DNA of 49,715 nucleotides from Chrysochromulina tobinii (Eukaryota > Haptophyta > Prymnesiales > Chrysochromulinaceae): NCBI GenBank assembly GCA_001275005.1, contig JWZX01003341.1, positions 1-49,715 on the forward strand, read 5' to 3'. Below the pieces are notes generated by a model. That model had not been told where the DNA came from. It searched no databases and saw only the letters and a program-made list of their open reading frames with translations. Positions 7,183 through 37,200 of the stretch are shown piece after piece. The stretch's first letter is position 1; every line of letters starts with the position of its first letter. A program made the translations under genes and the position numbers.

Positions 7183-7350
7183 TGATCAAACCAAAAAAGA
7201 AATCGTTTTTTGCGCATGCAAAACATGCGAAACGCGAATTCTGGAGCTCCTTTGGCCTCTGGAGCCCCCTTGCCTGTTCACAGTTCTTCCTGCACTGTTC
7301 ACAGTCGCGCCTGGAGAAACCTTGTTGTGTCTGAGCAAAGCAAGGCCAGG

Positions 7351-7935
7351 ATGGGGCTCATTGCGGGCCTCACGGGCGCGAGCCTGGGCACGATGATCGT
7401 GATCTACACGCGGGCCTTGCGGAAGGTGGCGCTCTTCTCGAGTGAGTGCTCCTCGCGCGCGCGCGCAGATGCTGCAGCTCTATCGCACACGAAATCCACA
7501 GCGGCTCACTCTCCTCTCACTATCGCCTCTGTCAATCGCCTGCTGTGTGCGCACACATGCCTGGCCTCTGAGCGCGTGCATGCGCCGTCGTCCTGCTGCG
7601 CAGAGCCGTGGGAGCACGTCTTCTTTGGCGTCATCGGCGGCTGGTGGGGTGTGCACAAGCTGCTGCAGGCGGAGAGCTATTGCGAGGCAAAATCCAAAGA
7701 GCTGCTCTTGGCAAAAATGGAGCGGAACAAGGTGCGCGGGGCCAACCGCCACGTCGCCCGTGCGCCTTTGCGGAGCAGCCCGCGATGTCGCTCGTGTGCC
7801 TTTGCGGAGCAGCCTACACTTATCGCTGCCGATCTCACCCTGCCGCTCCGCGCGCGTCGTGTGCAGGGCACCCTCGATGAGAAGTACCGCGCCATGCTTG
7901 GCAGCAGCTACGCAAAAATCTTCCCCGAGAGCTGA
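7351..7935 (+). CDS. Small two-helix membrane protein, three exons
   Basis: Proposed exons are 7351-7441, 7604-7731 and 7867-7935, giving 95 residues. Introns are 162 bp (GTGAGTGC...GCGCAG) and 135 bp (GTGCGCGG...GTGCAG). Both are multiples of three without in-frame stops, so the unspliced frame stays open. The spliced protein starts MGLIAGLTGASLGTMIVIYT, an apparent membrane helix. It continues with FSKPWEHVFFGVIGGWWG, a second helix, then a charged tail ending KIFPES. Size and architecture resemble small inner-mitochondrial-membrane or respiratory-complex accessory subunits, but I do not recognise the family. An in-frame ATG at 7210 would add 47 residues; I prefer 7351 because the conserved-looking part begins there. 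It is divergent from the Sfi1-like gene across about 168 bp. Confidence 0.6.
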   Translation: MGLIAGLTGASLGTMIVIYTRALRKVALFSSECSSRARADAAALSHTKSTAAHSPLTIASVNRLLCAHTCLASERVHAPSSCCAEPWEHVFFGVIGGWWGVHKLLQAESYCEAKSKELLLAKMERNKVRGANRHVARAPLRSSPRCRSCAFAEQPTLIAADLTLPLRARRVQGTLDEKYRAMLGSSYAKIFPES

Positions 7936-8461
7936 GGCGCGGCCGCGCTCCAGCTTCTCGATGTATTGGCCGCGCGAGATGCCGCGCGAGTGGTGCGGGG
8001 CCTGCGTTTTACGTTTCGCAGGTCCGTCGCCGCTTGCACACCTATAGAACTCCTCCTCGATGCGGACGGCCTCGAGGAGCTAAGCGTCTGGATCGACTTT
8101 TCAGAGTCACGGGCACCGTCCACGTTAGTGACAGTGTGTCGTATCGCTGTGGGCGGGAGTTCTTTTGTTTTTCGACCTTGTTTTCTGCTTACACAGCGCC
8201 TGACTCGTCCTCGAAGAGCGGAGCCGCCGGCCGCGCCGTAGCGCATGCCGCATGGCCGTAGCGCCGCCGGGCGAGCGCGGCCGACCGGTGCAACCGCATT
8301 CAGATTCACACAGAGCACACGGCAAGAGGGGGAAGCGGCAGCCCCACTCCCCTGACTATCAGCCTAATCGCCGGCCCCCGCCGCAGAGCGAGTCTGAGAG
8401 AGGTGAGCCGGCCGCGCCTACGGCTACGCGAGACGCGAGAGAGCAAAGTCCGAGACCACGC
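7936..8461. other. Convergent 3' spacer, nothing recognised
   Basis: The 526-bp spacer lies between two genes that end toward each other. Short frames run through it but none has a recognisable domain or clear codon pattern. Confidence 0.4.
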
Positions 8462-9202
8462 CTAGGCGACGGTGAGGTCATCGGAGAAGTATAGGTGGAT
8501 GGTAGGGATGTGATCGTCTGGATCCATGTTAAGAAGGTCAAACTGCAGGTCCTCATCGGGGATGCCGTTGGCAGCGAGCGTCTTCTTCATGTCGAGGACG
8601 CGTGAGAGAGCGTGGTCGTCGCTGCGCTTCCACACATACGAGCCCGAGTGCTGGTTGTACGGGATGTACCGCTTCTGGATCGCGTCCAGAGTCTCCTCGC
8701 TGCACACCTCGATGACCGACTCCTGCTTGGTTAGCATGTTGAACAAACGGATCTTGCGAGTCTTCGCAGTGAGCAACCCAATCTGCAGCGTCTTGTCCTT
8801 CCACCACGGCTTGCCGATGTCCGACGACCACATCGCCGTCGGCTCCGACGGTGGGCAGTGCAGGAACTCGCCCATCGGGCAGAATGGCACCTCGAGCTCG
8901 GTTTTCGGGTCAATATACGACTTGACCTTCTTCGTGACGGGATCGAACCAGTGCGATATGTCCGTGCCCGCCGCATCGATGATCGGCTGCACGAGGCTGC
9001 CCGGGTTAGCGGCCACGAGCTTCGTCAGGTCGCACACCTTGCCGAACATAGACACCCACAAGTCATCGATGCGGTTGTGCGCCTTGATCTCATCGGGCGT
9101 ATAGTAGCCCTGACCCTCCAACTTCGCACGATCGCTGCGGCCGCGCACGCGTGCCTGGACGACGGTGGCAGATTCGTTCTCGATCCTCACCTTCTTGCGC
9201 AC
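8462..9202 (-). CDS. CYB5D1: CYB5D1-like cytochrome b5-domain ciliary protein (5' end unresolved)
   Basis: The protein matches CYB5D1 nearly end to end. It has a cytochrome b5-like start (YYTPDEIKAHNRIDDLWVS), 'DISHWFDP' with a candidate haem-ligand His, 'GKPWW', 'LLTAKTRKIRLFN', 'RYIPYNQHSGSYVWK' and a C terminus 'LYFSDDLTVA'. CYB5D1 orthologues are radial-spoke-associated proteins needed for coordinated ciliary beating, so this implies a motile flagellum. Upstream of the b5 domain is an IQ-like segment (ATVVQARVRGRSDR), a possible calmodulin or centrin site. The frame has no ATG before the domain: the first codon at 9202 is GTG and the frame stays open to about 9266. A short upstream exon must therefore supply the start, but I could not place it. 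Confidence 0.88.
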   Translation of the reverse strand: MRKKVRIENESATVVQARVRGRSDRAKLEGQGYYTPDEIKAHNRIDDLWVSMFGKVCDLTKLVAANPGSLVQPIIDAAGTDISHWFDPVTKKVKSYIDPKTELEVPFCPMGEFLHCPPSEPTAMWSSDIGKPWWKDKTLQIGLLTAKTRKIRLFNMLTKQESVIEVCSEETLDAIQKRYIPYNQHSGSYVWKRSDDHALSRVLDMKKTLAANGIPDEDLQFDLLNMDPDDHIPTIHLYFSDDLTVA

Positions 9203-9261
9203 GTCTTTTCCTTTCTTCGCCGCCGCAATCCGGTCAGCCGCTGGCCTGCTGCTCAGGGTCC

Positions 9262-10096
9262 ATGGCTACCCGCGCGCTCGCGGCTCAGCTACGCGAAAGA
9301 GTCGTGTGCGCGGGCGGAGCCGCTCAGTCGTGCCGAAGCCCGGTCGCAAGGACCAGCAAAAAGCAACCGATCGAGGTGAGTGAGGGTCAAAATGGAAACC
9401 GTTTCGTCACTCGGCATTTTCAGTCGCCTCGACGTTCCCCACCGACAAATCGAACCGACAAAGACTCCTGCGCATTCGCCACTAGTGTGAAACTGACGGG
9501 TATGCTCTCCCCGCGTCTTTTCGTTCGATTGATTCCAATTGCTTCTTTGCCTTCCTTCCATGAAGCGGGAGACGCTCCATCCACAGCGAGGCCGCCCCGG
9601 TCCTGCCCCGTTCGCGTGCTGCTACCTCAACGAGTGTCCGGATTTGCCGCCGCTGCTTCTCGCGCTCGAAAGCGCGCCCGACATTGCTGGGCTGCTCGAC
9701 CTTGCCGCCGGCTCGCTCGTCAATGTAGCCGGCAGGAGCGAAAGCATCGTCCCAAAGGTTGCCTTCAGGCCGGACGGCACGGTGGTTCCCAAGGTGACCA
9801 AGTGCAGCTCGCTCCCGCCAGGCACTGTGCTCGTCTTCGGCTCCGGCGAGCCCTTCAACGCCGCGTCCGTACCAGCACGTGCGAAGAGGCTGAACCTGAC
9901 GCAGCAGCGGAGGCAGCGAGATCTTGGGCCTCTCGTGCGCGCGCCACAGACGCCGAGACAACTGTGTCGTGCAAGTCCGGGCATACATCCAAGGTTGGCC
10001 GAACCGCTCGCGGAGCCAATCCACGACGCGCCGTGGAAATTCTCGCCCTCGGGCCGATGGGAATCGCCCTTGGCACTCCGTCCAGATCGCCTCTGA
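9262..10096 (+). CDS. Hypothetical protein, possibly two exons
   Basis: Weak prediction. Exon 1 (9262-9375) would encode 38 residues starting MATRALAAQLRERVVCAGG, basic and Ala-rich like a transit peptide, and ends at a strong donor (GAG|GTGAGTGAG). Exon 2 would begin at 9566 after a pyrimidine tract ending in AAG, in matching phase, and run to 10096. Codon use looks coding mainly over 9570-9900, including the segment SLPPGTVLVFGSGEPFNAAS; the rest is less convincing. An alternative is a single exon from the ATG at 9560. No family is recognised. If real, its first exon abuts or overlaps the unresolved 5' end of CYB5D1 on the other strand. Confidence 0.33.
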
Positions 10097-10635
10097 GAGT
10101 TGACGAGAACGCGCGCTCTATCTCTGAGAGAAGGATCTTTTTCGATGATCGACACCCAGTGAGACTAGAAGTAGAACGGCATGGATCGCATCGATTTTTT
10201 GAGTCGAGAGCGCGCATATAGCCGAGCGTACGTCCGTTTTAGCAGTAATTCCAAATTCGTTCGTCCGCCGGGATCGGACAACGGCAGCGCGTCCCGAATC
10301 CGGATCTCTGATGTGTGATTCACCTGAGAGCGCCGGAGTTCAGCGGCTCAGTTCTGACGTGAGACTGAGTTCAGCTCAACGGCGTTAAAGACATTAAAGA
10401 CATGGAATAAGAGAACTGCCAGTCCCCGGGGTCCCCGCGGCGCGCTACATGGCCGACGCGCGACGGGCGGCGGTATCCGATCTGCCGATCTGCGCGATGC
10501 GCGGTATCCGATCTACGGAGGCTGCGCAGCCGCATTCCTACATACACGCTGGGCAGTGAGGCACCGAAAGGCGCTGCGCTCGCCGCCGCTTGACGCGCCA
10601 CCTGATGGACGCCTTCGCGTTGGCAGTCTCTGATT
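10097..10635. other. Spacer with a short direct repeat
   Basis: This region lies downstream of the hypothetical gene and of the J-domain gene. It contains GCGGTATCCGATCT twice, at 10470 and 10501, and an A/T-richer stretch near 10380 with two AAAGACAT copies. No gene is seen. Confidence 0.4.
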
Positions 10636-11179
10636 TCACAGCTTGAGATTCTGCGGCTTGATTCGAAGCTGCTCGTCGGCGGTCATCTGCAGCTGGTAGC
10701 GGCCTGCTTCGGCGTCGAAGCCCATCACCTTGCCCACCTTGTCGTTCCACTTCGAGCCGCTGTCGCTTGTGAGCCCGTGTACACGACCACGCGTCCCCGC
10801 GGGCAGTATTAGATTAGATAGCTGCAGCGAGGCGCGACCAACGCCTGCGATGTCAGCATGGTAGCGATCCCTCTCGGCATCGTAGCCGGCGATGGTCGCC
10901 TTTTGGCCGTTGAGCTCCGCGCGGTTTTGCATGCCCACCACATGCGCCGTCACCTGCTGCACTAGATTGTCCAGCTTAATGCGCAGCACCTCCCCGTCGG
11001 CGAGATTCACCAAGTACCGATATGAGGTTGGGTCGTACTCTTCAACCTTACCTGCCTTGCCGTTGTGCTGTGCCGCGCCGCGCAGGCTGTGGACGCACAC
11101 GGGCGTGCCGGCGGGCAGCACGCTCGGCTGCTCGGGCGCTGCGCGTGAGCGTCGGCCTCCACCCATGCCGCCGCCCTTT

Positions 11180-11210
<31 letters not shown>

Positions 11211-11817
11211 GCATGCCGCCCATGCCTCCCATCATGGCGGCAAACTCCGGCGGCAACCCCCCCATGCCGCCCATGCCGGCATGCATGCCATGCATGCCGC
11301 CCATGCCGCCCATGCCTGGCCCGCCGGCCGTCGAGAAGGCGAAATGAGCGCCGGGGCCTCCCGCCGCGAAGCCGCCATTTGCCTGCTGGCCAAAGAGCAC
11401 CGAGAAGGGGTCCTGCCCGCCAAAGAATTGCGCAAAGATCTCTTCGGCCTGCCCGCGCGAGAAGCCACCGCCGCTCATGCCCGCGCCGTTGAGGCCCTTT
11501 CTGCCAAACTGGTCGTAGGTTTGTCGCTTCTCCTTATTGGAGAGCACCTCATAGGCCTCCGACACCTTCTTGAAATTCTCCTCTGCGAGCTCCTTGTGTT
11601 CGCCCGGGTTTTTATCCGGGTGGTACTTGATGGCGAGCTTCTTGTACGCTGCGCACACGGCGGCGTTAGCACACAGACTTAGCGTGAGGGTCCATGGCGG
11701 GCTGCAGCAGCTCGCATGCAGCGTAGGAGGTGCGCTACCTTTGTTGATCTCCTGCTCACTCGCGTCCTTTTTGACGCCGAGGATCGCATAGTAGTCGTCG
11801 CCGGTGATGCGCTCCAT
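10636..11817 (-). CDS. DnaJ (Hsp40) co-chaperone with SH3-like C-terminal repeats
   Basis: Two exons (11739-11817 and 10636-11648) give 363 residues. The 90-bp intron (11649-11738, GTAGCGCA...GCGCAG) splits the J domain; splicing restores '[20 protein letters not shown]' with the HPD motif that stimulates Hsp70 ATPase. The start '[15 protein letters not shown]' is typical. The J domain is followed by a Gly/Phe region, then a long Gly/Met-rich stretch (GMGGMGGM repeats). There is no DnaJ-type zinc finger and no recognised client-binding beta domains. The C terminus instead has three related roughly 50-residue units marked [22 protein letters not shown] and [11 protein letters not shown], resembling small SH3/KOW-like beta modules. 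The intron is stop-free and in frame, so retained transcripts would still be translated but with a broken J domain. Confidence 0.9.
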
Positions 11818-12296
11818 TCGGCGGTCGGCACGCGGCGACTCGAGAGCCTAGGTGTCTCGAGCGTCCGACGTCCAGACGCTCCGAGCTCGCGCCTCTTGCG
11901 TGCTCGGAATTTAGAAAGTTATTTCGTAGCGTAAAGATTCGTAAATTGGCGGCGCGTCTTTATGTACATGTACAATACCCACACTGCTCAAGTTATCCTA
12001 TCACAGCCAATGGTTATATTTATATTTCGGACACCCAAGACCTGAACTGAGCTGAACTGAGCTGAACCGGTACCACTACAAGTAGCTCGGGGACCCCTGG
12101 ACCGCCTTCCCACAGCCATACTCGAAAATCCGCCGGGCCGGGCGCTTCGCCCCGCCCCCTGATCTCACCTGCTCATCCCGTTCCAAAGTTGGCACGAAAA
12201 CTTTGCGTTCTTCTGGGGCCTTTTTGCATTACACTCAATCAGTGTGGTCCCTGTCCGAGCGTCCGGAGAGGCCGGTCCTTGAGTCGTCGGCGAAGC
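11818..12296. other. Divergent spacer with CCAAT-containing dispersed repeat
   Basis: This 479-bp region holds the promoters of the J-domain gene (-) and NAMPT (+). It includes CACAGCCAATGGTT at about 12003, followed by a CGGACACCCAAGAC motif, three copies of CTGAACTGAG-like decamers near 12042-12066, and ACTCGAAAAT at 12120. The same motifs occur in the same order near 44219. Confidence 0.45.
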
Positions 12297-14053
12297 ATGT
12301 CGTGCTTCGACAACATCATCCTGGCCACCGATAGCTACAAGGTTCCTTGCCTTCGTCAGGCCGACGTTTCAGACTGTCCAGCTTGCTGATCGGCCGCGCA
12401 CGTATCCTTCTCATCTCTCGCAGGTCAGCCACTACAGGCAGTACCCGCCTGGCACGGAGTATGTCTACTCGGTACGTGCCGCACGGCACAGCGCGCAGCG
12501 CGCTCACTGCCGCAGCAAACCAGCCCATGGCTCGTACTGTGCTGCGCAGTGCGCGGCGCCGAGCATTGCTCATGATTACTCGGTTCCATTGCCCTTGCCA
12601 ATGGGATCCCTGTGAGCGCCGTGAGCGCTCCAGCCGAGACGCGGCCCCTGCAGCTGCCTGCCGCGTTCCCGCTCGAACGCGCCTGCTCCACCGCCGCCTT
12701 TGCGCGCAGTACTTCGAGAGCCGCGGCGGCGTCTTCGAGGAGGTTGTCTTCTTCGGTCTGCAGTACTTCATCAAGCGCTACCTGTGCGGCGTGGTCGTCA
12801 CGGAGGACAAGATAGCGTACGCCAAGGAAATCCTGGACAGCCACATGGGTCCTGGGCACTTCAATGAGGAGGGCTGGAGGCACATCCTGACCGCGCACGG
12901 TGGCATGCTCCCGATCTCCATCAAGGCGGTGCCTGAGGGCACGGTCGTGCCTGTGAAGAACGCCCTCTTCACCATGGTGAATACAGACCCAAAGTGCTTC
13001 TGGTTGACCAACTATCTCGAGACGCTGATGGTCGAGGTGTGGTACCCGATGACGGTCGCGACCAATTCGCGCGAGCAGAAGAAGCTGCTGCTGAAGGCGC
13101 TCGCGGCGACAGGTGGCGATCCGTCCAACGCCGACCTGCAGCTGCACGACTTTGGTTACCGTGGCGTCTCGTCGGTCGAGTCGGCGGCCATCGGCGGCGC
13201 TGCGCACCTGGTCAGTTTCCAGGGCACGGACACGATGGCCGCGCTCATCTGCGTCAAGCACTACTACAAGGGCGGCGAGGCCCTCATCCCGGGGATCAAC
13301 GTGACAGTGCCTGTGCCGGGCATCTCGATCCCAGCGGCCGAGCACTCCACCATCACGTCGTGGGGTCGCGAGGGCGAGCTGGACGCGTTCCGCAACATGC
13401 TCACGCAGTACCCAGAGGGGGTCGTGGCCGTCGTTTCAGACTCGTACGACATCTTCAACGCGTGCTCCAATCTGTGGGGCACGGAGCTCAAGGAGATGAT
13501 TAAGAATCGCAAGGGGCGGCTGGTGGTGCGCCCCGACTCGGGCGAGCCTATGGAGATTGTGCCGCTGCTGCTCGACTTGCTTGGCAAGGCGTTTGAAGAG
13601 GATGTGACCACGACGAGCACCGGCCACAAGCTGCTGCCCCCCTACATTCGGCTCATCCAAGGAGATGGAATCTCGTACGAATCGCTCGGCGGCATCCTCG
13701 ACGCCGCCGCAGCCAAAGGTTGGGCGGCGGAGAACCTTGTTTTCGGCTCAGGCGGCGCACTGCTGCAGAAGCTGCACCGCGACACGCAAAAGTGCGCCTT
13801 CAAGTGCTCGGAGATCATCAAGGCCGACGGCTTGGCCACGCTCGTGTACAAGGACCCGATCACAGATAAGGGTAAGCAGTCCAAGAAAGGCAGGCTCACC
13901 CTCGAGATGCAGAACGGCAAGCTCACCACGGTCACTGAGGGCAAAGGTGACCCGAGCAAGGACGTGCTGATCGAAGTCTTCCGCAATGGCGTCATGACCG
14001 TCGAGCATGCCTTTAAGGACGTTCGCGCGCGCGCCGTGATCCCACCCCTTTAG
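12297..14053 (+). CDS. NAMPT: Nicotinamide phosphoribosyltransferase
   Basis: Converts nicotinamide and PRPP to nicotinamide mononucleotide, the rate-limiting step of NAD salvage. Three exons (12297-12341, 12424-12471, 12710-14053) give 478 residues, close to the 491 of the human enzyme. Splicing restores 'NIILATDSYKVSHYRQYPPG' and then 'VYSYFESRGG'; introns are 82 bp (donor GTTCCT) and 238 bp (donor GTACGT). Active-site motifs are present: 'VATNSREQKK', 'LHDFGYRGVSS', 'FQGTDT', 'PAAEHSTITSWG' with the catalytic His, 'VVRPDSGEP' and 'FGSGGALLQKL'. The start at 12297 is chosen because the family begins just before 'NILLATDSYK'; an in-frame ATG at 12189 would add a basic 36-residue leader. No paired deamidase gene is nearby. 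Confidence 0.95.
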
Positions 14054-17486: not shown

Positions 17487-20400
17487 ATGTCGAGCTTTTC
17501 GTCTAACAACGTGTCGCCGCATGCTGCTCCGGTCGCCGACCTGACTAAAGTCTCGAGCGCCGAGAGCGAAGCGGACGACTCAGTGGCTCGTAAACGCCCG
17601 CGTTTCACAGTACAGTGCAGCGATGACCCAACAATGCTGCACGACGACAAGCCATTGCTGGATGCGGGACCGGCGGATGCTCCCCTCACAATTGAGGTCA
17701 GCGAAGATCGTATCGAGCTCGACCAGATGGTTCGCGTTATAGAGGCCGAGGAAAAGTCGCAAGCTGCAGAGCGCAGAATGGCCGCTGTGAAAGCTGCTGA
17801 GGCAGAGGCTGAGCATTCAGCCGCACCTCCGACAATAGACGATGGGAAAGGTGCCAGCTTAGCAGACGGCGGTTCCTTCGAAATCCTCGATTTCTCACTT
17901 TTTGACGAGGCTTCCAGTGTGAATGCATCTCCGCCACTCGCATCGCCCAACAAGAAGCTCGATCTCGGACTCATCGCCCAGCACCTCGAAGCCTCTCTAC
18001 CCTCTATAGAGCACGTGGCTGGGCGGAAAGTAGCGCTGATGCTCGGTAACACGGGCGTGGGGAAGTCGCTGCTACTTCAGGCGATGACTGGACGCAGAAT
18101 AACGCGACGGCCGTACGTGCCAATCAGCGTCACGGCCAATGCTTGCAGCACCGACGCGATGGATATCTCCGATGCCGAGCCAAAGGCATCGGATCAGAAG
18201 TTGGTGTGGGATGTGGAAGAGCCGCTCGAGGGCTTCGGCGTGGGTCACGAACAGAAATCAGAGACCAAGTGCATCCGCCACTACTCCGAGGGCGACGATT
18301 TCGATTCTATCGTGTATCTCGATGCTCCCGGGTACGCCCACACGACCTTGCTGCACGCAACGTTGCATTTACATGCACTTCTCACCGCCACTCAGTGCAT
18401 GCACCGCCTCTCAGTCCATGCACCTCTCACTGCCACCTCTCACCGCCACGCCCGCACTCGCGGCCGCTCCGTGCGCGCAGCTACGAAGACACGGCAGGCG
18501 TGGAGGTCGACATTGCGACGTCCATCGCTTTCAAGAAGGTCGCCGAGCGATGCTCTGCGCTCCGGTTTGTCGTGTTGGTAGACTGCCACACGTTTAGCGT
18601 CGACCGCGGTGGTGCGATGCGACGCGTCGCGGCGCTCATCTCCTCGTTTGTGCGCCCGTTCTTGCCTTTGAAGGAGTCTTTCACCTTCGTCTTCACAAAG
18701 GCCGACGCGCTGGGCGAGGCGGCGACACGCGAGGCGGCGCTTCAGCGGCTTAACACGGTGCTCAAGGAGACGCTCAGGGGCACGTCCGATGGTGACGTGA
18801 AGGAGGTGCTCAACTGGATGCTCTCGTGCCTGCATTTCAGCTACCCATTTGTTGACATTTACCATCCTGCGCTCTCGAACCCGCTGCTAGTGCGAAAGGC
18901 CATCGAGACTTTCGGTGCGCCCGCGGGGCCGAAAATGACATCGCTCACCTCGCCCCGTACCCAAGTACGTTGCGGCCTCACGGCCAAGGCGGAGAGCCAG
19001 ATCAAGCTCGACCTGGAGACACACCTGGAAGAGCTCCGCGTGTTGCTACTCAATGGGCACGCTGCGAGCGGCGCCGAGCTCCTCCGAACGCTCGACTTTC
19101 TCCGGCAGCACGTCGACAAAGGTTATGTGCAAGATGCGTATGCCAAAGCCGCGTCGTACTGGGGCGACCATGGCAAGGGCGTCCTCCTGACCGAGGCGTA
19201 CGCGCTCGTCGACGCGGGGCTGCTGCGTGACGACGCGGAGCTCCCTCTCGAGGTCATTGGACAAGGCCGCTGCGGCTTCACGGCAGAGCACGGCCGTGAG
19301 GCGCTGCGCCGCATTGCGCTTCTGCGGCTCTTTCTGCCGCACGAGGTGCCAGGAATGCCCGCAAGGGCCGCCGAGGAGGCACTCGAGTACTTGCGCAGAG
19401 GAGTTCGCGAATTGGGCAAGCGGGTGCATGCTGGGCTGATCCTCACGCTCGTTGGTCCGCACGAGACGAAAGCGGAACTGGCCCGTGCTGCGCACCTCAA
19501 TTTGCAAGCGTTCGTGGGCTCGGTTCTGGCCCTCGAGAAGCTGCGCCAATGGGTGGAAGTGCACCGTGAGTTTTGCGGCGCGGCAGACGGGGCGTCGGAG
19601 GCGATGCGCATGCACATGGAACAGCTGCATGCGATCGCTGCTTCGGAGACAACGGGCCAGCAACAGCTCGTGCTCGCTCTCAACCGCCTCTGGTACGCTG
19701 ACTCGAGCTGTGCGGCTGGTGAAGCACGTCTAAGCGCACTCGTCGAGACAGCCCGCGCCAAAGCTGCAGCGGCACTTGATGACGAGGCGATGTCTGACGA
19801 GGATCGACTGAGCGAGACGCGCCTCGCCTGCTACCGCGCATCTCTTACGCAGATTGAGGAGCTGCAAGGACTCTTGGACTGCGAGAACGCAAACCTCAAC
19901 AGCAAAGCTGCCTATGAGCTTCGCGAAACCGTTGGCATCGTGCGACGCAAGGTCTTGAACGACGCAAAGTCGCAGTTGCACCAACTGCTTCGCGAAATCG
20001 GCGAGGCTGTGGGAGCTTTTGACAACGCTTGGCTTGGCTTGGCCATCGGACACCCTAAACTTAGCGAGTCGCTTTGCCGCCTCGAGGAGTTAATGAGCCA
20101 CCTCGAGGTCTTCATGAGCATCATGTCACGCACCTCGCAATCACTGCTGAACGCGACGCAGCATGCGGAGTTCGAAACCGGCAACCTCGTGGCACAGGCG
20201 GCCAATATAGCTGGCAGCCCGGCGCGACGGCTCCTCTCTTTCTCAGTCGGCCTCTGCGAGCGCGAGATGCGAGACATCGAGCCGCTCTCAAACACGGCTG
20301 CGCATGCGGCGACGCTGAAACAGCTCGCTGCGTGCGTGTGGATCGATGACTGTCTGAGTGCTAGTGGGCAAGACGCAGAAGCTTTTGTTAGGAAGGGCGT

Positions 20401-23400
20401 TGCCAAACTCCATGATGAGTACGCGAACTTTGGCGAACGCGCCGTCCGCCTCGCTCTCAAGACCTTCGAGCGTCTCCTCGGCAACAGTGAGGGCGATGGC
20501 CACCGCTCTACCGTCTGGGGTTCGGATGTGACCACATTCACCGATGCGACCAAGGTGCTCTCACAGCTCAGTCCACTCCTCCAAAGCGACATCGCACGCG
20601 ACAGGAATCAAGCCATTAGCTTTGCCGAAGGCTTGTCCGCGTCCTTGCGCACGTGGAGTCGCGACGGCGATCGCTTCAACGCGATCTCTGACTGGCAGGA
20701 TCCACTAAAGGTGCTCGCGCCCTCCGCCTCACCGTCGGCTGCCGATCTGGAGGAGGTACTGAGAGTGTACCACCTCCTCAGTGACTCCGGTGCAGCTACC
20801 TTTGGTCCTTTCGAGTACCTGACCAGCTTGGACGCGCAGATTCGCTCACAACTCAGCTCAGCAAGCGTGGCGCTCAAGAAGATCTTCGATGCTGAGTCAC
20901 CGGCCGATGCTGAGAAGCAGAGTGCCGCGCTCCAAGGGCTGCACACGCTGCGAGCCAAGGGCCTGCAGAAGATAACGGAGCTGCTACCGGACGTCGATCA
21001 GCTTCGGGAGGGAGTGGCGCAGGAGTTGCGGGCCAAGACTGACGCTGCGCGTGCCGCCGTCAACGAGTCGGCCGGCGATCCGGATGCTGCGGGAGCTGCC
21101 CTCTCCGAGCTCTCTGTTCTCGCGACCGCGTTCCGAGACTTCGACTTCGGCCAGCAGGCCGCCCAGACGGCGAATGACCTGAAGCAGACGTTGGACCTCC
21201 GTGGTGCCAAGCTCGACGAGACGCTGCAAGAGAGCCTGAGCTCGGGAAGATTCAGATATGTTCACGAATACATCGAGCCACTCCTTGGAGCGAAGGATCC
21301 GCTGAAGCGAGAGAAGCTCAGCCGTGCGCTTGCAGCCGCAAAAGATTTACTGCAGCAGAAGTTTGAAGATGCGAGCGCGAGCGTGCAGGATGCTTTTCGC
21401 ATGGCCAAGGCGATCCGTCTCTTTGACGACGCCACGATTCATCTCAATAAGGTCCTCACCGAAGAGGGCATGGATGTGCTGTCGCTCGCCGCCACGCTTC
21501 GAGATCGGGCCGTTGCGTGCCTGAGGCGCCACGTTGAGGAGCTAGAGGCGGCCATCGAGGCGCAGCGCTTCGCCCAGGTTGTGGAGGGTGCCGAGTCCAC
21601 CAAGGAATATTTGGACGCCGTGGCCCAGCTGCTAGGGGCCGCCGAAACTGCAGAGCAAGTAGCTCAGAGACGCCGAAAGCGTGGCGGCAGCTCAAGCGCC
21701 GCAGGCAGACAGGCTCCAGAGCCGCCTAAGGCGGACCCTAATGAATTCCTCAAGACCCGCGCTCAGGCGGCCGTAGAGAATGCGGAGCGGTGCCTAGTGG
21801 CTGTTGATAAGGCGGCCAAGGAGTTCATCGGCCATATGAAGAGCTCGAACCTGGGAAAGAACCCATACCGAACCGCAATGCTCTGTGAAAGGCTGGGCAA
21901 GCTGAAGATGGCCGCCACAAGAGGCGGCGGTTCGCCAAACACGTCAGAGAGGCTCAAGACGCGTTACGAGGCGATTACTCGTGAGCTTACACGTGAGCTT
22001 GACAGCACGCTTGAGGAGGTGCAGAAACAGGCGGAAACCGAGCGGCTGGTGACATATGGCCTCACGATTTTCGGCTATGTCGCCAGCGAGTTTCGCGCCG
22101 GTCTTGCGGATCATGTGGCACTGCAGGTGGACGTAGACGGTGCTATTTCGGCCTTTAAGGCGATGGAGAGCGAGGCGGCCCAGAATATTCTTGCATTGTC
22201 GATTGAGCTCATCGAGACGAAGATTCGACCCGAGCTTGACACATTGAAGCAGCACTCATCCTCATATTTGATGTTCTGGCGTGCCAAACAGTACGATACC
22301 GCGAAAGCACGCTTCAGCGAGCAGCTCCGCCAGCTCATCGATACTACGAAGGTGATGGCACTACAATCGCGGCAATATCTGGAGGCTGGGCATCAGGCCG
22401 CCACCATTCAGCACGCCGTCCGCGTGTCTCCGCCTGTGCCGCCATCACGTCTACCGCCGCCGCCGTCGGTGTCGGTGCACCTGGAGCAAGGCGTGCAGAG
22501 CCGATGGACTCAGGCAAAGAATGCGATTGTGTCCGAGTTTGCTTCCCTCTGCGAAGCGGCCAAGGGTGCCCTCTCTCAGGGCAATGGCCAGAGCTTCGAG
22601 ATTGCGTTGCGCCAGATGCACGCCTTTGAGGAAGGACTCACCTGCGTCGATGCAAGCAAGATCATGAGCCTGGCCCGGGATGTGCACCACGCGATTGGCA
22701 CGTGGATTGAGGTGCAGGTGGCGACGCTTTTGAAAGAGCTGGAGGACGCAAGCGGACTTGTCTCGGCTGCCGAGTCGGTCCAAAGACTTCGTGGCGTGGG
22801 GCGGGTGCTTTTGAGCACGTGGGCGCTGTATGTTGAGCTGGCACAGTGTTCGCAGCGGCATGACAAGGAGGACGATGCGATCGCTCGCATCGCCAAGCTC
22901 GTCCGCAAGCACTTCGGCGGTGCGGACCTCTCCGAGATCGGCATGTGGTACTCGCTGCTCGAGCTTGACGTGAGCGCGACTAAGCCCGACGTGGCGAAAG
23001 CGTACAAAATGGTGAGCAAAAAGTACCACCCTGATAAGCGTCCCGCACTGCCGGACGTTGAGGGCCGCAGAGCCGAGCCGGGGCACAGAATGCAGCAGCG
23101 CGTCCAGGACGCCAAGGCGAAGCTTGAGGACGACGGCGCGCGCGAGCGCTTCGCTGCCGGCGTGAAGGCGCCCTTTGCCGCCGAGATCAAGAAGGTGCCC
23201 GTGGCGGTGCTCAATCATCTGACCAAGCTCCTAGAAGAGGACGCGTACGAGAGCGTGCGCCAGGTGCTAGTATCTCTGCCGGATCTGTCCAGGCTGCTCG
23301 CTCATGTCGATGGGCTCAGCAAGGATGAGATACACAAGCCGGCGAAGACGGCGTCCACGAAAGTAAAGGAGCACATGCGGCGGATCCGCGCCGACGTCGA

Positions 23401-26400
23401 CCGCCTGTGGGAGCATCGCAAATACAAGGAGCTCAACAGCCGGCTCAACGCGGTGGACGCAGCGGACAAGGCTCTTGCCGCGCACGAGGGCTTCTACGAC
23501 CCATCATGGGGGCGAAAGATACGTAAGGCGGTCGAGCAGGAGATCGAGTCCATCGCCGAACAAGCCCGCAAGTATGTCGAGGGCAAGTCCGAGGAGCAGG
23601 CGGAGCTGAAGCTGAAGGATTTTGCCCACAAGCTCATCGTGCTCGGGCGCATCCTGGACGAGCTACCCCGCTATAAGGACTTTTGCCGCACCAAGATGGC
23701 GGGCCTGCTCGACTCCATCCACGAGCAGGGCAGCTGGAGCTACTGCTACCTCTTCAAGCTGGGCATGTTGCTGGGGCAGGGCAAGGTGGGCGAGCTCGAC
23801 AGCAGCGGCAAGGTTGTTGCCGAGGACGACCGCATCGGCAAGACGATCGTCGCCGAGTTCAAGCACTTCAAGGACGTCACGACGATGGTCTGGAACGAGG
23901 AAGTCACGCAGCGGGAGGTCGGCTCGGTCGTGAAGGATGCCCTCGCCTGGCGTGTTGAAAACGGGATCAAGCGCAATGTCCACCTCGACGAATCCAAGCT
24001 CATCGAGGGCTTCGAGCGTTACCAGAAGGAGTACGACCGCTGCTTCAAGGAGTGGACTGCGGGTCGCCTTCCGCCCGAGGAGCTCGCGCAGAAAACAATC
24101 GCGGCGGCTGCGGGCATCCAGCCGGGCTCGTCGCTTCGGTGGTGCAACAAGGTGGTGGAGGCGGTGCCCACGCTACTCGCGCGCGTCTTCTGCTACTTCA
24201 CCGTCAGCAAGTCCGGCGACAGTTACTCGCGGCTGCTCGATCAGGCCGACAAGTTCGACGAGAAGGAAGGCGGCTCCGCCATGAACATGGACAACGTGCT
24301 CCTAAAGCCCCACTGCACGCAGGTGCTGACGGTGCTGCAGATGCTCGGCTATGGCAGCTCGGTCGGCGCAGCGTTACAGCGCCAGCTCATGCAGATCCGC
24401 ACGGGCGAGGGCAAGAGCATCATCCTTGGCGCGTGCTCGACGGTGCTCGCACTGCTCGGCTTCCGCGTGCGCTGTGTCTGCTACTCCGACTATCTGAGTG
24501 GGCGCGACTTCGACCTCTTCTGCGAGCTCTTCGAGAGCTTCGGTGTGCGGGGTCTTGTGGACTATTCGACGATCAGCGAGTACTCGGAAGTTGTCACGAA
24601 GCGCAAGGGCGACATCCGTCAGCTGACTGCTGCACTCCTCCTCGGCCGAGAGCTGCCCCAGACTTCCTCCTCCACATCTTCCTCCTCTTCCTCCTCTTCC
24701 ACACGTCTGGCCGGGTCGTCGGCGTCCGCCATCATGGCTGGCGCTGCGTCCTCCTCCTCCCCGGCGACTTCAAGCTTGGCAGCCGCCTCCAGCTTGGCAG
24801 CATTCTCCTCGGCGGGCGACCAACTGTCCAAGAGCGGCAGGGGCAAGAAGAGGAGCTCCGCGGCCTTGGCTGACCCATCTGATCCACCGCAGGAGACACA
24901 CGCACGTGGCCTGGCCGCCGCTCCCGAAATTTTGCTGGTCGACGAGGTCGATATCTTCTTCGGTGAAGACTTTTACGGCCAGACGCACAATCAGGTGGTG
25001 CAACTCGACGTGCCCGAGGCGGTCTCCATGCTTCAAACGGTCTGGCGGCTCCGCGTGTCGCACAGAGGCTACGGAAGCCTGTTGCGCGCTGCCAAGGAGT
25101 CGGCCGAGTACCGCGCCTTGCGCGTGCGCTTCTCCGAGTGGGACGACATAATTGAGCGCGAGGTGCAGGCAATGTGTGCCGACGTACAGTGCTTCGATGA
25201 CCCGAAGCCGCACTACGACAAGGGCTCCGATCGGCTCGGGTACAAAATCATGGATGGCATCGACTACGAGAGCGCAGTGTACCGGTATCGCACCGCCTTT
25301 GCGCACCTCAATGCCGCGGACAGTGGTACGTTTCGCAATCCAGGCGAGGCGCTCAAGCGCGCACTCAAGCTGCAGGTGCCGTGCGGCAAGTTCAGCTACG
25401 CCAACATCGAGCCCGACTGCATCCTTGGCGTCTCGGGCACGCTTGACGCTCTCGGGGATTACGAGCTCAAGGTGATGGAGCGGTACGGCATCCAGCTGTA
25501 CGCGAGCATGCCGTCGGTGTACGGCGAGACGCAGCTCAAGTTTGACCACGCGGGCGGCGCGATCAGCATCGAAGGCTCCGATGACGCTTTCCACCGCAAG
25601 ATCACCGACGAGACCAACCACAAGATCCGCGAGGGCCGCGCCGTCATCGTTTTCTTCGAGGCCGGTCGGCTCGATGCGTACAGGTCGTCGGCCTACTTCA
25701 AGAAGGTGCCCCACGCCAACGTTCTCGACGAGAGCCTCGACCCCAAGACGCGCGACTATGTCATCCGGAAGGCCGCGACGCACGGGCAGGCAACATTTGC
25801 ATCTGAAGCCTTTGGGCGAGGCACGGACTTCTTTTGCAAGGACAGCAAGCTTACGAACGCCGGCGGAGTGCACGTGCTGCAGACCTTTTTCGCGCTCAAG
25901 AAGGCAGATGAGGTGCAGATCCAAGGTCGCACCGCGCGCCAGGGCAAGCAGGGCACCTATGGCTTGGTGTTGCTGCACAAGGACCTCTCGGACAATTTCA
26001 AGCTTGGCTCCATGGACGGGGTGGCGCAGCGTGACATATACCGCACGCTCGAGTCGGCACGCAACTCTTTCCACGCGACGGCCTGCAAAGAGACGGAAAA
26101 GGCACTCGCGGAGGCAACGCGCATCGACAGGATCACGCACCAATACTTTGACGCGGTCTCTAAGGCCGGCGTCTCTCACTCTCAGCGCAGTACTGCTGTC
26201 GGCAATCTGCACAACTTGTATGTGGAGCTGCGTCCTAAGGAGGCTGGAAAATCTGTTGATCTTTGCATTGTCATGGACTGTACGGGCTCGATGGGGGCAT
26301 GGATCAGTCAGGCACACTCTAAGCTCGTACGATGCGCGCAAGAAGAGATGAATCTCGAGGTCAGGGTGGCTTTTGTTGCCTATCGCGACCATTGCTGCGG

Positions 26401-26905
26401 CCGGGACCGCCTCGAGACTCTGAACTTCATCGACGCATCCGATATCACACGACTGCAGAATTTCATATCGTCTCGATGCTCGGCCAAGGGAGGGGGTGAC
26501 CACCCGGAGGACGTTGCTGGAGGGCTGAATGCTGCTCTCATGTTGTCATGGAGTGATGCGCCGAACAAACTCGTTTGCCACTTTGCAGATGCGCCCGCGC
26601 ACGGCAGAAAGTACTGCGATGACGGCGATTCGTATCCTGACGGCTGCCCGCTTGGTCTTGATCCGCAGCAACTCGTGGAACAGCTTGCATCGCAGGTTAG
26701 CGCAAACTACTATTTCATCAACTGCGAATGCGGCTCGACTACGGCAAAGATGGTTCGCATCTTCCGCGAGGTGTACAAACTATTTCCTGGCCGGGACTTC
26801 AATGAGTACAAACTCGGCACTGATTCGGCACAGTTTCTCAGCACGATGGTCGAGACTGTTGCGCGTACCGTCGAGCTCGCGCATTCTGGCCGATCGAAGC
26901 GCTGA
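17487..26905 (+). CDS. Giant GTPase / J-domain / SecA-type ATPase / vWA protein
   Basis: Two exons (17487-18331, 18481-26905) encode 3,089 residues; the ATG at 17487 is the first in frame. Near residue 187 is a P-loop (LGNTGVGKS). The splice restores 'LDAPGYEDTAGVEVDIA', a GTPase switch-II motif, followed by 'FTFVFTKAD' with an [NT]KxD-type motif. Residues about 350-1750 are largely helical. A J domain with the HPD motif lies at about 1798 (KYHPDKRP). A SecA-type motor follows: 'QLMQIRTGEGKS' (2256), 'ILLVDEVDIFFGEDFYGQ' (2436), 'EAFGRGTDFF' (2727) and 'QIQGRTARQGKQGTYG' (2764). Between Walker A and B is a Ser/Ala-rich insert. The C terminus is a vWA domain with MIDAS 'DCTGSMGAW' (2881), of the type seen beside alpha-kinases. 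No signal peptide is seen. Function is unknown; a nucleotide-driven remodelling or transport machine is inference. Confidence 0.88.
18332..18480 (+). other. Intron of the giant gene, with C/A-rich degenerate repeats
   Basis: A 149-bp intron (GTACGCCC...GCGCAG) sits inside the GTPase switch-II codon. Its interior is made of imperfect copies of a TCAGTGCATGCACCGCC/TCTCACTGCCACC type. Because 149 is not a multiple of three, splicing is required to join the GTPase to the rest of the protein. Confidence 0.8.
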
Positions 26906-33267: not shown

Positions 33268-34200
33268 GCGCCTTGCCCTCCATCGCGGAGCGGGAGGGCT
33301 GAACTACTAGCATCGGACCCCGCACCCCCCCGCCCTATACGCACCCCCGCACACGGGGACACGCACCCTTGCGCTGTGTTTTTTGTTGTAGACTCTGTTG
33401 TAGTTTGTGCGTGTCGAGGTATCGGCGAATGTAGTCAGGTGTCAGGAATGTAGCGAGTTTTTGATAGTTCCAAGTTCCGTGATTGCTGATTCGTAGTATT
33501 GGTAATGGCATCCATTCGACGTGACGCCCGGGGCCCGGGGTCACGGCTCGCGCCTTACTCGCGCCGCGGCCGGACCCGGCCGGCGGCGGCCTGGCGCGGC
33601 CGCCCCGCGCTTAACCCCGCGCCCGGCCGACCGGCCGGCGCGATCGCGTATGCGCGTATGGCCGCGTTTTTTATCCGCGTATCGAGCGTTCGCAGGGGCG
33701 AGCGAGGCGGTCGCGGGCGCGTGCGCCCCAGCGTCCTCCCTCCTCCCCGCGCGCCCCGCGGCGCGGCGGGTTGTTGCTTCGTCGAATAACGAATACGAAC
33801 AGAACGGTCAGACGAAGTCGGTGCGTCCACGGTACGCCGGCGGGGGCGCTCACCGGGGGCGCGCCCCGTAAAACCGGCGGTTGGCTGGTACATGCCGTTT
33901 GGGTTCCGCTCCGGGCAAAACCGCGCCACATGTGGTTCGTGAACCGTGTGCTGATCCTAGCTGGTCGTCCGTGGAGCAACTCTTCATGCGTCATGGCAGC
34001 ATCTCCCCTCTCCCCCCACGACCTCCCTTCTTCCCCCACTATGCCAGCTGGATGTCACGTTGGCCACACCTCCGTGCTGGTAGCGTCGCTCACTCAACAT
34101 AGCCCACTGCTCCACGTGTGCGCGTGTCCACGGATCCCGCGCGCCTGCCGAGCACTGTGTTCACGTGTGCCGCCATCCCAATGCGCTCTGTACGTGGCGC
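33268..34200. other. Convergent 933-bp spacer with GC-rich block
   Basis: The region holds the 3' ends of the carrier and kinase genes. A block at about 33525-33780 is nearly all G and C. GTGACGCCCGGG at about 33520 also occurs near 38928. No gene is convincing on either strand. Confidence 0.4.
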
Positions 34201-37200
34201 TCAGATAGAGGAGACGCACTGGTACATGTTCTCCATGTACTCATCGACGACGGCGGTGGGCGAGACAAAGTCCCATTCGGCCACTTCGTACTCCTGATCG
34301 GGCGCCTCGCGCTCGGCCTCCGAGATATCATTGGCGATCTGCACGGCGAGATTCTCCTTGTCCTTCTTGCGCTTCGCCGGCGCCTTGAGGTTGACGCAGG
34401 GCGAGTCGAACTTTTTGAGCGGCACGAGGTCCCAGTCGATGCCCCTCCAGTACGGATGGTCGAGGATCCCTGCATGCAATGCGGGAGGCAATGCGGGACG
34501 CAATGAGGGAGGCAATGAGGGAGGCAATGAGGGAGGCAATGAGGGAGGCAATGAGGGAGGCAATGAGCAATGAGGGAGGCAGTCTGCATGCAATCGGGAT
34601 GATCGCAAGTCACGGAGCGCGCACCAGCGATGCCACGGCTGTCGCAGCCTAGTCGCACGTTGTGGTCTTGGTGAAGGAGCCCCATGACGAGGCTCTCGGC
34701 GGCGGAGTCCTTGAAGTCGTGCGGCCGGTACTGCGGGTTCTCGTCCTCAGGATGAGCATAGGGCACCGTGCCCGCCGAGAACTCGTACATGAGGACGCCC
34801 ACCGTGTACCAGTCGCACGACATGCCGTAGGGCTCGCGACGGTCCTTGGCCCATCGCACCTCAGGCGCCATGTAGCAATCGGTGCCCACACGCGAGCGCC
34901 TCTTGGGCTGCTTCTTAGAGACGCGGGCAGCGAGCCCCATGTCGATCATCCGCACGTGGCCCTCCTCGTCGATCAGCAGGTTCTCGGGCTTCATGTCGCG
35001 GTACAAGACGTTCTGCTGGTGGCAGTAGCCGATGACGCACACGACCTCCATCATGATGAAGCGCACCTGCTCGGCCGTCAGACGCTTCTTCGTGAGAACA
35101 AACTCGGAGAGGTCTCCCGCGGGCACGAGGTCCATGACCAGCACGAGGAACTCTGTGTTCTGGAAGGCGTACGAGAGGTTGACCAGGAAGGGGTGGTGTA
35201 GGCATGCCATCAGGTCCTTCTCGAGGTGGATCTTCCTCCTCCAGGACGAGCCCAGGGAGCGGCGCATCATCTCCTTGTGCATCACTTTCATCGCATAGTG
35301 CTTGCCGCAGTCGCGCTTGACTACCTCAAGCACCTGCCCGAAGCCGCCCTGGCCCAGCACCCGGATAAGCCGGAAGTCAGGCAGCCCAGGTACTCGCCCT
35401 TCCTTGGCTTTGAGCTCCAGGATGTACGCAAAGTGCTCCGACGAGAGGAACGGCGACATGCACTGGTCCTCGATGGCGCTGACCGCGATCTTCTGCGCCT
35501 CGTCGAAGAGCTTGCGTGCCTCTTTGATGTCGAGCGAGCCCACCGTCAGCTTGCCAAGCTCCGTCTTGATGGCCGCACGCTGCGTCTCAGTGAAGCAAGA
35601 GAGGCGCATCACGCCGTCGCTCTTGATGAAGTGCTCGTAGATGCGCGTGCCCATGTCGAGCAGCTGCGGCGGCTCAGGCTCTGATCGGAAGTCCTGCACG
35701 TCCATCCAGAACTCGAACATGGCGAGCGACATCGTGTACGCCTCGCGCTCGTCCGCCCGGTCCTCGCACGCCTTGGAGATGAACTTTCGGAAGATGCCCA
35801 TGTAGGCGGGGTTCTGAAGGATCTCGTGGATGGACACGTTGGCGAGGTGCTGGCCGGCAACCTGGCGCTTTTCGTTCGAGAAGGCCTCGGTTAGGTTGCG
35901 CAAGCGTCTCGCCTGGTACGAGGCGAGGAAAGCAAAGAAGCGGCCGGGCAGCTTCGGATGGGACGTGAAGAGGCTCTCGAGGTACGCTCCGTCCACGCAC
36001 ACGAGGATCGCCTCCTCCGAGTCGGTCACGATCGAGGCAGTCGCGCATCCGCTCTTGAGAAGCGACGTCTCGCCGAACATCTCTCCCGGCCCACGGTGTC
36101 CCACAACGACTGCCGTCGGCTGGTCCTTCAGCTGCAGCTCGACCCGCAGAGAACCCTGCAAGATCTGGTACAGGGCGCGCGTGGGCATCCCCTCGCGCAG
36201 CACCGAGTCGCCCTTTTTGAAGCGCATCTGCTTCGCGCCCGAGAGGAAGAGACTCCAATCCATCTCCGTCAAGTCCATCGAGAGTCCATGGGTCTGTGAC
36301 GAACCTGACGAAGCTCGAGGGCTCTCCCGCGCCGTGTGGCCGCCGGATTTGCCCAGCTCGAGCGCGTCCATGATGGTCTTGTCGACCTCCTCGTACACCT
36401 GCGCCTTCGTCGGCCCCAGCTCGGCCGAGGCCGCCTGCAGCGCCGCGGCCGTCGCCTGGCGGCGGCATTGCTCCATTTGTACCCACGTCTCCTCACAACT
36501 TTCGGGCAGCGTCAGCTCGAGCGAGTAGCCCTTGCACTGCACTTCGACCGTATTGGCCAGCTCGGTCGACTTGAGGAGTGCAACCACGTCCGTCAGATCG
36601 ACCGTCTGCTGCTTGTGGAAGCCGAAAACTTTCCAATCGAAGCACAGATGCTTCTCGAAGAGGTACATGTCACCGAAGGACACGTTGGCATCCTTGAGGG
36701 CATTCGCCTCTTTTCGCATGGAGCACGTGGTGCGCAAGACGAGGGGCTCGTCCTTGTCGAGGGCAAACAGCTGCCGGTACTTGGCCACGTTCAGGGTCGT
36801 GTCGCCCTGGGGCTTCTTGGCCGTTATGGTATTCTTGGCGTTCTTGGCGACCACCTCGGCGCGCATCTTGGAAGACGCCTCGCTGATGCGATCCGAGAGC
36901 GTCGAAGCGAGCATCCGGAAGACGCGGCCGCACTTTTCGGGGTCCGATGCGATGTGCTCTGCCAGCCTGGAGTGCTGCACGACATAAGCCTCGACCGTGC
37001 CCGCGGCGATGACGCTGCTGCCGGGCAAGTCGCCCAGCAGGAGCGTCATCTCGCCGATTAGGTCGCCCTTGCTGCGCTTGGCCACCTCCTTTGTACCTTT
37101 CAAGATCGTCGCGGTGCCCTTCCGGATGAAGATGGCAGAGTCCGAAGCCTGGCCCTCAGTGATGATCGCCTCCCCATCCTTATATGTCTTTGGCAGGCCG

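Follow-up and report, generated by a model that had tools for sequence, protein, structure and literature searches.

A 3,089-residue protein of Chrysochromulina tobinii that joins a GTPase, a J domain and a SecA-type motor to a von Willebrand factor type A domain

The window analysed here is a stretch of 49,715 nucleotides from the haptophyte Chrysochromulina tobinii (contig JWZX01003341.1 of assembly GCA_001275005.1) and represents one entire contig of the genome that was searched (53 Mb, 2,253 contigs). Its forward strand carries a two-exon gene (17487 to 26905), the spliced product of which has 3,089 residues with a single terminal stop and combines a GTPase, a J domain, a SecA-type motor and a von Willebrand factor type A (vWA) domain. 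A single gene with these four modules had been proposed in an earlier note on this DNA, and every motif listed there was found again in the translation: GNTGVGKS (residue 187) and DAPGYEDTAG (279) in the GTPase, HPD (1798) in the J domain, TGEGKS (2256), DEVD (2436), GRGTD (2727) and GRTARQGKQG (2764) in the motor and DCTGSMGAW (2881) in the vWA domain. The open frame containing exon 2 comprises 2,951 codons, and J domain, motor and vWA domain all lie inside it without interruption. The gene is intact, and its features are given in Table 1.

Table 1. Features of the four-module gene in window coordinates. NBD, nucleotide-binding domain; MIDAS, metal-ion-dependent adhesion site.
Feature	Position	Strand	Remarks
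Exon 1	17487..18331	+	Residues 1-281 plus two bases; N-terminal stretch without recognised domain, first half of GTPase
Intron, 149 nt, GT..AG	18332..18480	+	Within the G3 motif, DAPG/YEDTAG
Exon 2	18481..26905	+	Remaining GTPase, spacer, J domain, SecA-type motor, vWA domain, stop
GTPase domain	17970..18871	+	Residues 162-412; G1 187, G2 S.T, G3 279, G4 FTKAD 353; split by the intron
Spacer, about 1,350 residues	18872..22915	+	Without Pfam domain
J domain	22919..23146	+	Residues 1762-1837; HPD 23027-23035; helices I, II and III predicted
J-to-motor linker, mostly helical	23147..24145	+	From the model of residues 1690-2879
SecA-type motor	24146..26026	+	NBD1: TGEGKS 24401-24418, DEVD 24941-24952; NBD2: GRGTD 25814-25828, GRTARQGKQG 25925-25954
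Ser-rich low-confidence loop in NBD1	24677..24892	+	Residues 2348-2419; varies among relatives
Motif II-III stretch at the position of the SecA PPXD clamp	24983..25396	+	Two long flanking strands (predicted secondary structure)
45-residue helix after NBD2, at the position of the SecA helical scaffold	26027..26161	+	C-terminal exchange starts at the helix end (residue 2842)
vWA domain, VWA_4 type	26252..26902	+	MIDAS DCTGSM at 26276; the near-identical P0002 has a different vWA type there

The splice was checked with 20 fragments from a search with the GTPase alignment, which were read for VYLDAPG, the motif at the intron site. Eleven of them, two being 98% identical to the window and not independent of it, track the family up to VYLDAPG, after which nine run into unrelated letters and two stop. 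This is as expected for a shared intron and supports the splice from outside. In eight of the 20 fragments the searched motif was not seen. Fragment P0200 (83% identical to the window, on a 626-nt contig) reads through the intron site as VYLDAPGYEDTAG, which matches the spliced window protein. Two open reading frames (ORFs) from MMETSP transcripts of other species, both marked complete, encode GTPase, J domain and SecA motor (P0051) and J domain, SecA motor and vWA domain (P0025), respectively. They overlap and therefore together span the whole module order, and the division into two or more separate mRNAs that the earlier note had considered was not seen in them. That the four-module protein results from a fusion of neighbouring genes or from mis-splicing is hardly credible: the intron was originally set by eye and the transcript ORFs come from other species, but J domain, motor and vWA domain share one unbroken frame, the intron site is conserved and crossed by P0200, the transcript ORFs overlap across the module order, and the order recurs in 22 of 40 proteins with GTPase and motor signatures. 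A proline-rich insert of 14 residues (residues 1597-1610, 22424-22465) is present in the window protein and its close relatives P0001 and P0002 and missing in all five other aligned relatives (P0003, P0004, P0028, P0041 and P0009). A second intron at this point, which would shorten the protein, was considered. No clean GT..AG pair of insert size was found there by eye and the segment was provisionally kept as an in-frame insert.

The modules were characterized by profile searches of the kind suggested in the earlier note and by structure prediction of the part from residue 1690 onwards. SecA_DEAD (33.8 bits, cut-off 24.6), DnaJ (29.7 bits, cut-off 27.8) and VWA_4 (28.1 bits, cut-off 27) exceeded their Pfam cut-offs on the window protein, while P-loop_SecA stayed below its own (13.9 bits, cut-off 27). 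The SecA motifs of NBD1 (GEGK, DEVD, SGT) and NBD2 (GRGTD, GR..RQG) are present; Walker A, DEVD, GVSGT, GRGTD and GRTARQ were found in the window and are widely retained in relatives. When a motor profile of 56 relatives was compared with the PDB, the top 24 of 44 matches were SecA (to 1.7e-15), and the RNA helicase MSS116 reached only 3e-3. The SecA fold expected around residues 2230-2800 was recovered in the predicted structures: with a model of residues 2075-3089 (mean pLDDT 82, pTM 0.79), the top 36 of 124 Foldseek matches (E<=0.001) were SecA, the best at 1.7e-17, and the best fold matches of a second model (residues 1690-2879, mean pLDDT 83.5) were likewise SecA structures. TM-scores of these matches were modest (0.30-0.41 by query, at most 0.65 by target for isolated SecA motor domains), a level that would be expected of a distant relative.

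About 160 residues lie between motifs II and III and are bounded, in the model, by one strand of 8 and one of 9 residues. According to the sections of PMC6599042 drawn on here, the two strands connecting NBD1 with the PPXD in SecA grip the substrate backbone regardless of sequence, and the clamp and the two-helix finger are presumed to act together in chain movement. In the model of the window protein NBD2 is followed by the 45-residue helix, a shorter helix and then the vWA domain, with neither wing nor two-helix finger. SecA_SW (PF07516; scaffold, wing and finger) was unmatched in the window and listed for none of the 90 relatives from a first database search; in a second search it was listed for 11 of 111 proteins, all of which are canonical SecA by their other domains. 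The motor appears to be a relative of SecA and not a Sec translocase. The missing finger would also fit an ordinary superfamily 2 helicase that works on RNA or DNA and resembles SecA by ancestry only, the motor fold being common to SecA and helicases and RECQ1, DDX21 and Brr2 being among the weaker fold matches. This is quite improbable, as SecA takes the best places among both fold and profile matches, the long stretch between motifs II and III is present and no nucleic-acid-binding domain was matched in the Pfam scan of the window protein.

The genome harbors two canonical SecA genes, one intronless on a plastid-like contig (34% GC) and one split into exons on a contig of 64-69% GC. The 34%-GC contig with its SecA gene suggests that the alga probably belongs to the red plastid lineage. 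In phylogenetic trees, one of which carries a warning that long branches meet, both joined bacterial SecA (support 100 and 100/100), apart from all SecA-like rows. The comparison of the SecA module with plastid SecA that the earlier note had called for places the motor far from plastid and canonical SecA; descent from plastid SecA was rejected by the approximately unbiased (AU) test, in which joining the algal family to plastid SecA was 392 log-likelihood units worse (p 3e-74). Rows from Wolbachia, mosquito and spider fell on the side of the window family, which places it with the eukaryotic SecA-domain clade. A nucleus-encoded plastid or secretory translocase derived from plastid SecA might be considered in a genome with a plastid-like SecA contig and a second canonical SecA gene, but is highly improbable given the grouping of both copies with bacterial SecA, the rejected joint placement, the lack of a hydrophobic leader and the relatives in plastid-less Acytostelium, arthropods and bacteria. 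The absence of a leader, claimed in the earlier note, was supported by a hydrophobicity scan, in which no hydrophobic leader was found, and suggests that the protein is probably cytosolic or nuclear. A viral origin was considered as well and rejected: none of 48 matches of one degenerate pattern in viral contigs encoded a relative, and the best 50 matches in a viral structure library were vWA proteins, helicases and others, none of them named SecA and several nameless.

The GTPase shows the G1, switch threonine and DxxG motifs of TRAFAC GTPases. No GTPase Pfam model exceeded its cut-off on the window copy (MMR_HSR1: 18.1-19.9 bits, cut-off 21.9), and neither the AIG1/GIMAP nor the septin model was listed for the window protein. 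In an alignment of 15 rows, which include the window, the bacterial loci L024 and L026 described below and a paralogue on contig C1736, residues G26, G31, K32, D118, G121 and D124 are invariant and S97 and T99 occur in at least 90%. Pfam matches with E<=0.1 among these rows were AIG1 in 5 (best 1.4e-3) and septin in 6 (best 4.8e-4). A profile made from the alignment scored the window copy at 254 bits and the paralogue at 181 bits, both being part of it, and its matches include GIMAP4, IRGB10 and septins. It exceeded 20 bits in 24 of 41 rows scanned. Rows outside the profile include P0004 (233 bits), P0017 (241), P0044 (246), P0047 (123), P0085 (74), P0087 (81) and L025 (54). Acytostelium (74 bits, truncated model) and the partial C1914 (29 bits) are likewise among the 24. 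Rows from Wolbachia, mosquito, spider and fish gave nothing significant; the 17 negative rows include six short ones in which the GTPase is perhaps cut off (P0145, P0165, P0167, P0168, P0169 and P0173). The spacer behind the GTPase, only the final part of which was modelled, is presumably helical. The J domain has predicted helices I-III, an intact HPD and a score above the Pfam cut-off. Two further J-domain genes lie in the window (10636-11817, reverse strand, and 46226-48892, forward strand); FHA and SAP domains accompany the J domain in one of the two. Other neighbours are a NAMPT/NAPRTase-type gene (12347-14050, forward) and a gene for a protein with GRAM, cyclic-nucleotide-binding, RGS and protein kinase domains (34161-37334, reverse).

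Relatives were searched in a database clustered at 90%, in which scoring was confined to about 7,980 candidates of suitable length that had the most words in common with the query. The search with motor and vWA domain yielded 90 proteins, among them those of the diatoms Seminavis, Pseudo-nitzschia, Cylindrotheca, Nitzschia, Epithemia and Thalassiosira, the prasinophyte Cymbomonas, the pelagophyte Chrysophaeum and the slime mould Acytostelium. The second search, for shorter proteins, yielded 111 and added the dinoflagellates Polarella, Symbiodinium and Durusdinium, Wolbachia, spider, mosquitoes and fish, as well as canonical SecA (5e-6 or weaker). The complete set of modules, HPD and MIDAS included, was found, for instance, in Seminavis (P0009) and Cymbomonas (P0005), and with the HPD lost in Chrysophaeum (P0047). 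The earlier note regarded the four modules as normally separate; for algae this is not correct, as diatoms and Cymbomonas have a conserved fusion of the four. The proteins found in dinoflagellates are short, with motor and vWA domain but without GTPase; that of Durusdinium also has a J-like stretch without HPD.

Motifs and their spacing were surveyed in 200 proteins (199 and the window protein). Walker A and DEVD occur together in 159, of which 55 have more than 1,850 residues before Walker A and thus room for a GTPase. G1 and G3 were found in 50 of these 55; the exceptions are P0001-P0003 with neither motif, P0054 with G3 only and P0065, which starts at G1. P0001 begins downstream of the intron. 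In the 40 proteins with G1, G3 and motif VI, window included, HPD[KR] is present in 27, a post-motor MIDAS in 32 and both in 22. The distance from G1 to Walker A is 1,864-2,083 residues in all but two of the 40 (2,188 and 2,633), and in the 27 the HPD[KR] lies 423-464 residues before Walker A (searched range 300-650). A J profile of 69 rows detected 22 further J-like domains, of which 5 retain the HPD and 17 have lost it, as read from the sequences; seven proteins of more than 2,400 residues had no J match. The family of giant GTPase-spacer-SecA-motor proteins is wide, and its algal branch has a J domain and one or two vWA domains, the latter occupying the place of the SecA wing and two-helix finger. 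Further SecA-like genes were observed in the C. tobinii genome. Two loci (L009 on contig C1978 and L012 on C1190) represent a second SecA-like kind on its own long branch, with armadillo repeats in C1978. Another (L015/L023 on C309) combines a SecA-like part with a vWA domain and is placed next to the arthropod/Wolbachia group, together with L027 from bacteria.

To look for prokaryotic members, 84,980 species genomes of bacteria and archaea were scanned with one conserved pattern. It matched 35 stretches, and 4 of these are relatives; as a single pattern was used, four bacterial loci are a lower bound. Three of them, all from metagenome-assembled genomes (MAGs), combine GTPase and motor without a J domain: L024 (Gammaproteobacteria), L025 (Chlamydiae) and L026 ('Actinomycetota'). 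A vWA domain was unmatched in all three, and L025 ends at a contig edge inside the motor. L024 adjoins cytidylyltransferase and RNase E genes and L026 adjoins thiC; these bacterial neighbours show that both are located in bacterial DNA. The fourth locus, L027 (Gammaproteobacteria MAG), has a motor without GTPase, and in it a giant SecA-like ORF (3049-7779) is directly followed by an ORF of more than 1,900 residues (7792-13527). GTPase and SecA motor without J domain were also found in Acytostelium. The combination of GTPase and motor in algae, an amoebozoan and bacteria indicates a recurring core unit that spans these groups, and the J-less core in the three MAG loci and Acytostelium suggests that J and vWA domains were either added later or lost in other members. 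In C. tobinii itself, the paralogue on contig C1736 (L011) has a 3,667-codon open frame with GTPase, motor and vWA domain, and no J match in the 3,300 residues read.

The C-terminal end of the protein exists in two forms. Residues 283-2841 of the window protein are 99.5% identical in P0002 (12 substitutions in 2,559 residues) apart from a two-residue insertion, whereas from residue 2842 onwards nearly all residues differ (24% identity over the C-terminus). From residue 283 to its end the window protein is matched by P0001 in all but three letters, at which P0002 shares the letters of P0001. The end of P0002 is 56-60% identical to the ends of P0003 and P0091, which are more distant. A tree of 39 vWA domains, which carries a long-branch warning, grouped the window copy with the product of a vWA gene of the same genome (C1468; 95/83), a 492-residue frame without SecA part. 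The P0002 domain lies among the DESGSM vWA domains of the family, separated from the DxTGSM side of the window copy by a 99/98 split. The diatom relatives have two vWA domains in tandem, DxTGSM then DESGSM, and their DxTGSM copies grouped with C772 of C. tobinii (98/92). C772 (L033) is a vWA-alpha-kinase gene with the same vWA type as the window. No copy of the P0002-type domain was found in the genome search (best 31%, C1736). A downstream store of spare vWA domains was rejected, as tblastn of the window revealed no second copy. The MoxR AAA+ partner that characterizes MoxR-vWA ternary conflict systems was looked for in the gene and in ten neighbouring ORFs, and no MoxR domain was present in these.

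The simplest reading is that one form recently replaced its end by a vWA domain of other origin, with the seam behind the last long helix of the motor. Alternatively, an ancestor carried both types in tandem and each form retained one, which would agree with the tandem arrangement in diatoms and with the window on the DxTGSM and P0002 on the DESGSM side. The tree is moderately against such differential loss, since the window domain groups with C1468 and the diatom DxTGSM domains with C772, and P0003 and P0091 bear the P0002-type domain at the same place. P0002 might instead represent a recent paralogue from a different genome. Misassembly of one of the forms may also explain the difference, although both forms recur, with P0001 repeating the window form (10 contigs) and P0002 standing for 53 sequences. 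The vWA end can apparently be exchanged, and exchange was seen once: in 152 pairs compared (55 of canonical SecA and 97 others), C-termini are kept at >=56% in all canonical pairs and in 91 of the 97, the remaining 6 involving the window form. Neither these near-identical forms with different vWA types nor the recurring GTPase-SecA core was part of the earlier note.

Exchange of the vWA end points to an end that selects targets. A rival reading is that of an intracellular recognition or defence receptor, in which a GIMAP- or immunity-GTPase-like module assembles and a ligand that is foreign or abnormal is recognised by the vWA domain and remodelled or disarmed by the SecA motor. Such a receptor would agree with the divergent vWA domains of 99.5%-identical forms and the kinship of the window domain with a stand-alone gene of the same genome, with the several SecA-like paralogues and their varied partners, with GIMAP4, IRGB10 and septins among the GTPase matches, and with GTPase-SecA relatives in Chlamydiae and Gammaproteobacteria MAGs. 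Transfers of SecA-domain genes from eukaryotes into Wolbachia and Amoebophilus, as described in part of PMC3639933, point the same way. We nevertheless regard it as unlikely. A single exchange was seen against C-termini that are otherwise kept, the window contains no second vWA domain, and no PADLOC model matched exon 2; L026 gave no match either, and L024 a single weak one (mad8, 2.6e-4).

We tentatively favor a cytosolic polypeptide motor that is switched by GTP, recruits Hsp70 and has a docking end open to exchange, a possible reading of the domain content. From the sequence it is plausible that the protein combines a GTP gate, Hsp70 recruitment, chain handling and docking. The vWA end would dock a target or an adaptor, and GTP binding or assembly by the GTPase would switch the machine. 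The motor clamp might then hold a chain by its backbone, while the J domain would recruit Hsp70, which would take over the chain and thereby give the forward bias that the finger gives bacterial SecA. Substrate, GTP gating, Hsp70 hand-over and vWA ligand are the putative parts of this scheme. Several observations weigh against it. The J domain is absent from the three bacterial relatives with GTPase and SecA motor, and these, together with the HPD-less paralogues, indicate that an Hsp70 step cannot be essential across the whole family; the 17 J-like domains without HPD likewise suggest that Hsp70 recruitment is dispensable in some paralogues. The Pfam model of the PPXD (PF01043) is unmatched in the window, the assignment being one by position and predicted topology. 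As SecA_SW and the finger, the canonical pushing element, are missing, activity on polypeptide chains is not assured. In the model of residues 2075-3089 the vWA domain is predicted with lower confidence, and one of 18 relatives (P0056) has a hydrophobic stretch (1.67) within its first 60 residues. That the protein defines a new class, with a GTP-switched SecA clamp without finger, a bias by Hsp70 recruited in cis, exchangeable vWA targeting and a core older than algae and shared with host-associated bacteria, is a more far-reaching proposal and somewhat doubtful.

SecA is taught as the export motor of bacteria and plastids. A large conserved and apparently uncharacterised family would place a SecA motor, together with a GTPase, in the cytosol of many eukaryotes, and algal members would additionally link it to Hsp70 recruitment and a docking domain. 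If polypeptides are handled, eukaryotes have, in addition to AAA+ rings, another soluble motor for unfolding. As a natural variant without the finger, the family makes the question of finger versus clamp in the SecA mechanism testable.

No description of a GTPase, J domain, SecA motor and vWA domain in one protein was found in a literature search of published papers that was thin on subscription titles and without preprints. Individual traits are shared with several known systems. A eukaryotic SecA clade is known from insects, Daphnia, Polysphondylium and Tetrahymena, and Wolbachia and Amoebophilus have received copies by transfer (PMC3639933). These proteins, such as Wolbachia wBol1_1091/1092, are also very long and contain a SecA domain in a clade apart from bacterial SecA, but no GTPase, J or vWA domain is named in the sections of that paper drawn on here, and the Wolbachia, mosquito and spider rows had no significant GTPase match. 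Bacterial secondary SecA_DEAD proteins, one with NACHT and TPR, likewise join a SecA motor to signalling or repeat domains (PMC4452313); the main text of that source never mentions GTPase, DnaJ or von Willebrand, and its NACHT example retains SecA_SW. As reported in parts of two further sources, a SecA DEAD-like protein occurs among the eukaryote-like genes of a Legionella species (PMC4256840) and SecA-like ATPases occur in giant secreted bacterial toxins (PMC8195603). With canonical SecA and SecA2 the window family shares the NBD1-NBD2 motor, GEGK, DEVD, GRGTD, GR..RQG and a long stretch at the PPXD place; it differs in lacking SecA_SW, in an unmatched SEC-C tail, in forming a separate clade and in the fusion to GTPase, J and vWA domains. 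The GTPase has P-loop, DxxG and switch threonine in common with GIMAP, septin, IRG and EngA GTPases, which are matched by its profile, but the window copy differs in reaching no GTPase Pfam cut-off. The vWA-alpha-kinase proteins such as vwkA, of which C772 is an example in the same genome, have a VWA_4-type vWA domain with DxTGSM as in the window, and a kinase instead of the SecA motor. In the Sec63/Hsp70 and Tim44/Hsp70 ratchets Hsp70 is recruited beside a chain-conducting machine, whereas the window protein unites J domain and ATP motor in one soluble protein.

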